From positions 1 through 28,864 of IMG/VR virus record IMGVR_UViG_3300034375_002708: a DNA stretch of 28,864 nucleotides. One strand, written 5' to 3'. A program made the translations under genes and the position numbers. Position 1 is the stretch's first letter. Each line of letters begins with the position of its first letter. The DNA is from a virus. Of the stretch, positions 11,077 through 12,644 are shown in pieces. Under the pieces are notes generated by a model. The model was given only the letters and a program-made list of their open reading frames with translations, did not search any database and was not told where the DNA came from.

Positions 11077-11742
11077 ATGGCACAAAATAAGAAATCATTC
11101 ATATTGTACACCGACCTAATTCATACGGTGCAGCAATTAAACGAAGAACAAGCCGGTAGATTGTTTAAGCATATTCTCGCTTATGTTAATGACCTTGATC
11201 CTGAAACAGACGATGTTATAACCAAGATTGCATTTGAACCTATTAGACAACAATTAAAGCGTGACCTTCAGAAATGGGATAGCTACATTGAAAAGCAAAG
11301 CCTTAATGGGAAAAAGGGTGGCAGACCAAAGAAACCCAAAGAAAGCGAAAAAACCCAAGCCTTTTCTGAAAAACCCAAAAAAGCTGATAGTGTTAATGTA
11401 AGTGTAAGTGATAGTGAAAATGTTAATGTAATAAATAAGAGAGATAAATCTCTCTTGGTGGAAAGGGATGAAATTTTTGATCAGGTTTGGAAGGCTTACA
11501 GCCAAGTTTCAACAAGACAACCTGGAAGTAAGAAGGATGCAGCATCAAAGTTTAAAAAACTAAAACAGACAGATCTTGAAAAGATCAGGCAGCATTTACC
11601 AAAATATCTCAAGAATCACATCGCAGCACAAAAGACAGATTATCTTCCTAACTTTACAACGTATTTAAATCAAAGAAGATACGAGGATGAAAAGCTGCCG
11701 TATGCGGATAGTCAGAACGAATTAGACAACTGGACATTATGA
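11077..11742 (+). CDS. DUF6291-like replication initiation protein
   Basis: 221 aa. The start is the ATG at 11077: MAQNKKSFILYTDLIHTV is the usual N-terminus of the family, and an in-frame ATG at 11038 would lie within the terminator hairpin. The N-terminal domain continues LNEEQAGRLFKHILAYVND and IAFEPIRQQLKRDLQKW. A low-complexity linker (about residues 85-125, rich in Lys, Ser, Val, Asn) leads to a helical C-terminal domain ending in YLPNFTTYLNQRRYEDE, like helicase-loader or DnaD-type proteins. Likely role: binding the origin and recruiting the host helicase. The linker DNA holds repeats described separately. ATGA overlap with the methyltransferase. Confidence 0.75.
   Translation: MAQNKKSFILYTDLIHTVQQLNEEQAGRLFKHILAYVNDLDPETDDVITKIAFEPIRQQLKRDLQKWDSYIEKQSLNGKKGGRPKKPKESEKTQAFSEKPKKADSVNVSVSDSENVNVINKRDKSLLVERDEIFDQVWKAYSQVSTRQPGSKKDAASKFKKLKQTDLEKIRQHLPKYLKNHIAAQKTDYLPNFTTYLNQRRYEDEKLPYADSQNELDNWTL
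11391..11456. repeat. Direct repeats plus palindrome in replication gene linker, candidate origin
   Basis: TGTTAATGTAA occurs twice, at 11391-11401 and 11421-11431, exactly 30 bp apart (about three helical turns). A perfect inverted repeat follows: AAGAGAGA (11437-11444), TAAA, TCTCTCTT (11449-11456). The surroundings are A/T-rich and code for the variable linker of the replication protein. Several phages, such as lambda in gene O, have their origin inside the initiator gene, so an origin is a reasonable hypothesis. Confidence 0.4.
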
Positions 11743-12644
11743 AACACGGATCTTTATTTAGTGGATTAGGTGGCTTTGATTTAGCGGCTGAGTGGATGGG
11801 ATGGGAGAACATCTTTCACTGCGAGTGGATGGAATTTCCTCGTAAAGTTTTAGACTACCACTTTCCAAATGCTGATTCACACATTGATATATGTAAAACT
11901 GATTTTAAAAAATATGCAAACAAAATTGACATTCTCACAGGAGGATTCCCATGCCAACCATTCTCAATGGCAGGGAAAAGAAAAGGCACAGATGATGAAC
12001 GCTATCTTTGGGGCGAAATGCTTCGAGCAATACAAGAAATTAAACCGGCATTCGTCATCGCTGAAAACGTCTTTGGTATCACTAATATTGATGACGGATT
12101 GGTTTTCGAGCAGGTGTGCCTTGACTTGGAAGGTGAAGGGTACGAAGTACAGCCGTTTGTTATTCCAGCTGCAGCCAAAAACGCTCCGCACAGAAGGGAT
12201 AGAGTCTGGTTTGTTGCTCAAAACACCATGCTCAGCAGATGCGTACACGGAGAATTTGAGCAAGAAAGAGCAGAAGTTCGGGAATTCGGGAACACTCGCT
12301 CAAGAGGTTCAGAGCGGTTTTATTTACAAAAGGGGAATGCTGCTGACTCCAAGTGCATCAGACGGACTGAGATCAGGGATGACAATGGAGAGTTTGAAAA
12401 AACACAACAAGATAAATGCCGAAAAAAGCAATTTAGCAGAACAGATAGCACACAAAGTGAATGGAGGCAGTTCCCATCTCAACCCGCGATTTGTGGCGGA
12501 GATGATGGGCTTCCCACCGAACTGGACGGAATTACCTTTTCAAAGTGGAGAGCAGAAAGTATCAAAGGATACGGAAACGCCATAGTGCCACAGATAGCAC
12601 TTGAGATATTTAAGCAATTAGAAAAAATATACTTAGAATTGTAA
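11739..12644 (+). CDS. C5-cytosine DNA methyltransferase
   Basis: 301 aa. Motif I FSGLGGFDLAAE (7-18) binds S-adenosylmethionine, motif IV GGFPCQPFS holds the catalytic C72, motif VI is ENV (109-111), motif VIII is APHRRDRVWFVA (149-160), and motif X is GYGNAIVPQ near 277-285. The enzyme makes 5-methylcytosine in a short target sequence that cannot be read from the gene. The region from about 161 to 235 should be the target recognition domain; it is low in recognisable motifs and its DNA also encodes another conserved-looking frame. The C-terminal ICGGDDGLPTELDGITFSKW is usual for this phage subclass. A dioxygenase and glycosyltransferase downstream suggest that 5mC may be a precursor. Confidence 0.92.
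   Translation: MKHGSLFSGLGGFDLAAEWMGWENIFHCEWMEFPRKVLDYHFPNADSHIDICKTDFKKYANKIDILTGGFPCQPFSMAGKRKGTDDERYLWGEMLRAIQEIKPAFVIAENVFGITNIDDGLVFEQVCLDLEGEGYEVQPFVIPAAAKNAPHRRDRVWFVAQNTMLSRCVHGEFEQERAEVREFGNTRSRGSERFYLQKGNAADSKCIRRTEIRDDNGEFEKTQQDKCRKKQFSRTDSTQSEWRQFPSQPAICGGDDGLPTELDGITFSKWRAESIKGYGNAIVPQIALEIFKQLEKIYLEL
11869..12585 (+). CDS. Overprinted ORF in the methyltransferase gene, with MTase motif-IX-like signature
   Basis: This 238-aa frame lies wholly inside the methyltransferase gene in the +1 frame and is open from 11854. The first ~80 residues are unconvincing, but from about 12090 it reads WFSSRCALTWKVKGTKYSR, RLLFQLQPKTLRTE, LLKTPCSADAY, FGNSGTLAQEVQSGF, LLTPSASDG and LNPRFVAEMMGFPPNWTELP. 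These are blocks I recognise from C-terminal parts of phage C5-methyltransferase-like proteins (TWK, LTP/TP repeats, and MGFPxxW, the motif IX region). The methyltransferase frame in the same DNA keeps its own motifs VIII and X. How it would be started is not visible: internal ATG codons exist at 11869 and later. Real translation is inference; conserved coding potential is the evidence. Confidence 0.55.
   Translation: MLIHTLIYVKLILKNMQTKLTFSQEDSHANHSQWQGKEKAQMMNAIFGAKCFEQYKKLNRHSSSLKTSLVSLILMTDWFSSRCALTWKVKGTKYSRLLFQLQPKTLRTEGIESGLLLKTPCSADAYTENLSKKEQKFGNSGTLAQEVQSGFIYKRGMLLTPSASDGLRSGMTMESLKKHNKINAEKSNLAEQIAHKVNGGSSHLNPRFVAEMMGFPPNWTELPFQSGEQKVSKDTETP

Follow-up and report, generated by a model that had tools for sequence, protein, structure and literature searches.

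Naturally two-polypeptide C5-cytosine DNA methyltransferases (C5-MTases) include M.AquI, with motifs IX and X together in its small subunit, M.EaeI, and M.EcoHK31I, the small polypeptide of which is reportedly encoded within the gene for the large polypeptide, in a different frame. M.EcoHK31I has been termed 'naturally split' (PMC3439449); its larger subunit carries motifs I-VIII and X and its smaller subunit motif IX, while the predicted target-recognition domain (TRD) has been assigned to the large subunit (PMC3404938). In phages, overlapping frames within a methylase are known from the ShiLan domain HNH insertion, where the second frame codes for a homing endonuclease and not for a subunit (PMC11855218). 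The overlapping coding sequences TADHANA_54/55 of Paenibacillus phage Tadhana and those of its relatives, the second of each pair in +1, are both annotated as DNA-cytosine methyltransferase. A phage protein family, PHROG_1008, is named DNA methyltransferase, and its entry is silent on any overlap, on a subunit role and on the mechanism.

The window analysed here is the whole stretch of 28,864 nucleotides of IMG/VR virus record IMGVR_UViG_3300034375_002708, a 28.9 kb record with Erf-type annealing, endolysin, terminase, tail and portal genes. With a probability of about 0.83, we consider that one of its loci codes for a two-polypeptide C5-cytosine DNA methyltransferase like M.EcoHK31I, consisting of independently translated, overprinted alpha and beta subunits. 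Compared by motif layout as described, the likeness to M.EcoHK31I lies in an alpha with motifs I-VIII and X but no motif IX, in a beta with motif IX, and in a small open reading frame nested within the large one in a different frame, which is observed here and is reportedly also the case for M.EcoHK31I. The two differ in that M.EcoHK31I is a restriction-modification enzyme with target YGGCCR, whereas here we have an orphan phage gene, no restriction enzyme gene being recognised beside it when the neighbours were profile-scanned, and in that recognition would here reside in beta instead of the large subunit. A split of the M.AquI type was not found, as motif X is in alpha. Beta belongs to the PHROG_1008 family and is about 31% identical to that of the Tadhana-type pairs.

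The M.EcoHK31I arrangement (rarely described), the PHROG family and the GenBank pairs of overlapping coding sequences in Paenibacillus phages were thus already known. What is new is evidence that nearly all members of the alpha family have the overlap, across phyla and with both frames selected, and that beta is often missed by annotation; none of the papers searched was found to describe the alpha/beta overlap in phages.

The catalytic subunit and the second frame

The features of the locus, all on the + strand, are as follows.

11739..12644, +: alpha, C5-cytosine methyltransferase, catalytic subunit of 301 aa with motifs I-VIII and X (PF00145, AlphaFold2 model)
11751..11780, +: alpha motif I (SLFSGLGGFD), AdoMet binding (translation; F7, G9, G11 and G12 invariant, n=51 alphas)
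11940..11966, +: alpha motif IV (GGFPCQPFS) with catalytic Cys72 (P71, C72, Q73 and P74 invariant)
12063..12071, +: alpha motif VI (ENV; E109, N110 and V111 invariant)
12192..12209, +: alpha motif VIII (RRDRVW; R153 and R155 invariant)
12240..12503, +: alpha residues 168-255, predicted disordered linker at the site expected for TRD and motif IX (pLDDT)
12567..12593, +: alpha motif X (GYGNAIVPQ; G279, N280 and P284 invariant)
11854..11913, +: open +1-frame stretch 5' of the conserved beta ATG, including an ATG at 11869, probably outside beta
11914..12585, +: beta, predicted overprinted +1-frame subunit of 223 aa (MQTKLTF...TETP), PHROG_1008 family (PHROG_1008, tblastn, shuffles)
12115..12180, +: beta block CALTWKVKGTKYSRLLFQLQPK, beta residues 68-89 (L70 and W72 invariant, n=71 betas; confident model strands)
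12475..12534, +: beta motif IX (HLNPRFVAEMMGFPPNWTEL; P191, V194, M198, G199, F200, P201, W204 and T205 invariant)

A sequence-only reading of this DNA had described methyltransferase motifs I, IV, VI, VIII and X and, inside the same gene, a +1 frame open for more than 700 bases with several conserved-looking blocks. All of these motifs were found in alpha, all of the quoted blocks are present in the +1 translation, and the +1 frame has no stops across 11854-12585. Over its full length alpha matches PF00145 (3.7e-44), TIGR00675 and PHROG_363. Its AlphaFold2 model shows a confident large domain like that of M.HhaI, with which it shares the fold at 32% identity, and a C-terminal helix. In the normal monomer, the residues equivalent to alpha 168-255 form the TRD and motif IX. 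Here this stretch has a pLDDT below 50 almost throughout, residues 166-245 show an identity of only 0.17 to homologues, and alpha alone covers just positions 1-233 of PF00145. TRD and motif IX were accordingly not found in the alpha polypeptide, a C5-MTase core that lacks the latter motif.

Beta matches PHROG_1008 (4.5e-23), as do 71 of 71 aligned beta homologues, so that the search of the +1-frame protein against protein databases, which had been proposed as a check, placed it in an existing phage family. Beta alone matched no Pfam model, and neither a PDB profile search with beta nor phmmer with its motif IX peptide gave any match; an NCBIfam hit to a monooxygenase subunit (E 0.045) was discarded as chance. 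The model of beta alone is weak (pLDDT 60, pTM 0.27) and is not used further, its VIA-align comparison yielding only Z values below 3 and no credible fold match. The most likely start of beta is the ATG at 11914, which would give 223 aa: of 153 non-redundant homologues, 122 share this ATG, and several homologues have stops immediately 5' of it, just upstream of residue 16 as counted from the ATG at 11869. Given these stops and the conserved Met, translation probably does not begin at 11869.

The sequence LNPRFVAEMMGFPPNWTEL occurs in the +1 frame only, at the end of the stretch of alpha predicted to be disordered, and had been noted as a block resembling motif IX out of frame. Three results identify it, at the level of sequence comparison, as motif IX of C5-MTases. 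First, when beta was spliced in silico between motifs VIII and X of alpha, the PF00145 match grew from 1-233 to 1-323, with scores of 166.1 bits with beta, 149.0 without beta and 151.9 for alpha alone. Second, the beta motif IX peptide placed before motif X of alpha scored 18.9 bits versus 13.4 with a scrambled peptide, a modest gain, while the upstream sequence of alpha itself in front of motif X gave no PF00145 score. Third, and most telling, a plasmid of Candidatus Megaera polyxenophila (L316:813-1835) codes for a PF00145-complete methyltransferase that has its motif IX within the alpha frame itself, where the beta profile matches it at 32.7 bits. The +1 frame of the plasmid gene retains other beta-like sequence; it is either a natural single-frame relative or an intermediate.

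Selection on both frames and spread of the overlap

The +1 frame could be open and look conserved merely through the conservation of alpha and a codon usage that avoids stops, and the alphas of the phages in this viral group are indeed about 76-92% identical to this one in the catalytic half. We permuted synonymous codons in such a way that the alpha protein and its codon counts were unchanged (alpha-keeping shuffles). Among 20,000 of these, the 223-codon +1 frame was open in a fraction of 5e-5, with a mean of 6.3 stops versus 0 in the real gene, while the third frame of alpha contained 21 stops against 21.2 expected. The same was found in every homologue: the 152 non-redundant betas have 0 stops, with 6.0 expected per locus, and 152/152 score above the maximum of 30 alpha-keeping shuffles each. 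In the opposite direction, when codons were shuffled with beta kept, the alpha frame in this gene was expected to contain 9.4 stops and 0 were observed.

Synonymous sites are also constrained. In 88 viral alphas, the third-base identity of fourfold codons was 0.53 before beta and 0.53 after it, versus 0.71-0.79 in the overlap, which is the raised conservation that had been suggested as a check (Mann-Whitney P = 1e-4; 4e-5 for twofold codons, both P values being indicative only because related sequences are not independent). Shuffle tests are unaffected by this non-independence. Along the DNA the lead in conservation switches, alpha being ahead over the catalytic motifs and motif X and beta over motif IX (0.93 versus 0.70 for alpha), while between these motif regions both are variable; the MGFP of beta is coded over DGLP of alpha. 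The variable (TP)n segments of beta are coded within 12240..12503, opposite the alpha linker. The shuffles in both directions and the fourfold-site identity rule out a chance open frame or conservation of alpha alone, an explanation to which, also given the lead of beta over motif IX, we attach practically no weight. The proposed overprinted pair is thereby borne out: the alpha and beta frames are both conserved and selected at the protein level.

With regard to its spread, tblastn retrieved 69 phage records when beta was the query and 96 records when a proteobacterial beta was used, and a scan of IMG/VR found 523 related stretches of viral contigs. Beta lies in +1 of alpha in the best 80 of these 523 stretches and likewise in annotated records of phages and plasmids. 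The same relation is present in phages of Klebsiella, Salmonella, Escherichia, Xanthomonas, Komagataeibacter and Synechococcus, in an Enterobacter plasmid, and in phage or plasmid records of Paenibacillus, Lacticaseibacillus, Bacteroides and Porphyromonas. In bacterial genomes it was found in 80/80 loci, which had been selected by beta, from Bacteroidota, Bacillota, Pseudomonadota, Desulfobacterota, Parcubacteria, Acidobacteria and others. The pair is conserved across phyla, and the +1-frame blocks do occur elsewhere, as had been supposed.

Homologues with an intact methyltransferase and a broken +1 frame had been named as what would speak against an overprinted pair. So that beta itself did not decide the selection, loci were also collected by alpha residues 1-63, a segment that beta overlaps only at its very end. 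Among the complete viral alphas obtained in this way, 69 of 70 have an open beta frame with the MGFP motif; the sole exception (L113, 2501-3600) has one stop in an otherwise intact, conserved beta frame.

Some individual loci deserve mention. Two (L018 and L291) are apparently broken by indels or an N gap, and an apparent in-frame alpha/beta fusion (L233) was rejected as an assembly artefact, a gap of N accompanied by repeated sequence. In a plasmid of Bacteroides finegoldii (L005:2338-2520), alpha contains TGA stops, one of them where homologues have Trp (AAE*MGW), and alpha of B. xylanisolvens XB1A (L281:2867-2990) also has in-frame stops; decay and recoding are both candidate readings for these two.

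Stop codons within motif IV of relatives

Some alphas contain a 6-nt insertion in motif IV with a stop codon, GGN TTY CCN [stop] YYN TGY CAR CC, that is GGFP*(L/P/S)CQP; the alpha of 11739-12644 has no such insertion. These alleles were found in 48 distinct IMG/VR loci, all of them IMG/VR contigs and mostly metagenomic (Dcm-like loci L168-L194, L196-L199, L202-L204, L209-L217, L219-L222, L224-L225, L317, L318 and L321-L327). The stop is TAA in 29, TGA in 12 and TAG in 7. The codon 3' of it is CTN in 23, CCN in 18 and TCN in 7, and the codon 5' of it is CCG in 24, CCT in 15, CCA in 9 and CCC in none, CCC being the commonest codon for that Pro in the collected uninserted genes. No alpha-frame stops were present in the beta span of 35 of 37 stop-bearing loci, and in total their alpha frame has 14 stops versus 324 expected if only beta were constrained. 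The alpha frame downstream of the motif IV stop is, then, still under selection.

In a pattern scan, the sense-codon version of the insertion (VAA CTN) was not found in any methyltransferase, and freeing the Cys codon added just one match, which was unrelated. The pattern matched twice in 395 Bacteroidota genomes, both times by chance, and a search for tRNA genes revealed no suppressor tRNA for these stops. The codon after the stop can always pair with the anticodon of tRNA-Pro, by standard or G-U pairs at the first two positions. A hop of peptidyl-tRNA-Pro from CCN across the stop to CTN, CCN or TCN would restore GGFPCQP exactly, whereas readthrough would add two residues to the active site and a +1 shift would enter beta and lose the catalytic part. 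A review of recoding from 2016 describes stop-hops in synthetic constructs, with no natural case known (PMC5009743). With a stop inside motif IV and a downstream frame still under selection, the 48 loci are candidates for natural ribosomal stop-hopping. The wider picture, of an old, very widespread and obligate overlap with one branch translating alpha across the stop between the active-site Pro and Cys by an in-frame stop-hop, is one that we put forward tentatively and regard as somewhat less probable than its opposite.

In 9 of the 48 loci, a stretch resembling an HNH endonuclease (IQAHH...CQKCHHxWH) stands in alpha just before the motif IV stop, at which it ends; it is in the alpha frame in L196, L204, L210, L211, L213, L219, L221 and L321 and in the beta frame in L178. 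This insert resembles the ShiLan insertions (PMC11855218), and the combination of HNH and stop recalls T4 gene 60, with its association of a homing endonuclease and a bypass (PMC5009743).

The proposed two-polypeptide enzyme

In the enzyme that we propose, alpha would supply AdoMet binding, the catalytic Cys for the flipped cytosine, and motif X, its frame across the TRD region being mostly an unstructured linker. Beta would be translated independently in the +1 frame, with initiation probably at ATG 11914, and would complete the small domain with motif IX. Since the alpha stretch is predicted to be disordered and is hardly conserved, the target-recognition surface is placed most probably in beta, with less confidence than the rest because the predicted TRD of M.EcoHK31I is assigned to its large subunit and because the beta model is of low confidence and has no credible fold match. 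Alpha and beta would assemble into one active heteromeric enzyme, and the best reading of the analysis as a whole is that both polypeptides would be required, as an obligate pair of the M.EcoHK31I type. Among the three roles previously suggested for the second protein, that of a methyltransferase partner fits best, motif IX being in beta and absent from alpha. An orphan methyltransferase is usually read as protecting phage DNA, and this one probably shields it from host restriction.

Another of the suggested roles, a variant made by frameshifting, need not be invoked, since the start ATG of beta is conserved and in several homologues the frame is closed by stops just upstream of it. If beta were made only through programmed frameshifting, as a fusion of the N-terminal part of alpha with an alternative C-terminal part, the shift could take place anywhere in the overlap, and the beta frame is open slightly 5' of its ATG (11854-11913). 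Besides the conserved start and the upstream stops, however, a fusion before motif IV would be without the catalytic Cys, and no shared slippery site was seen in the window, so that we judge this explanation very improbable. It is also quite unlikely, given that beta carries the C5-MTase motif IX absent from alpha and that the two co-occur in a constant frame relation, that beta is an independent regulator, anti-restriction or DNA-binding protein which stands outside the enzyme and overlaps alpha for historical reasons, although the lack of a Pfam or fold match for beta alone would agree with this.

In bacteria and phages, long same-strand overprinting in which selection acts on both proteins has, to our knowledge, rarely been documented. 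Here, with 523 viral stretches and many phyla, it seems to be a constant trait of a common enzyme. The second open reading frame is often unannotated or 'hypothetical' in other records, and because annotation misses or misnames beta in many of them, such enzymes are entered as monomers that lack motif IX. Should activity depend on the pair, the targets of hundreds of phage methyltransferases could be found by expressing both frames. The constraint that the two frames share, as where MGFP lies on DGLP, is open to study, and natural stop-hopping would be open to direct test if the stop-codon alleles are confirmed.
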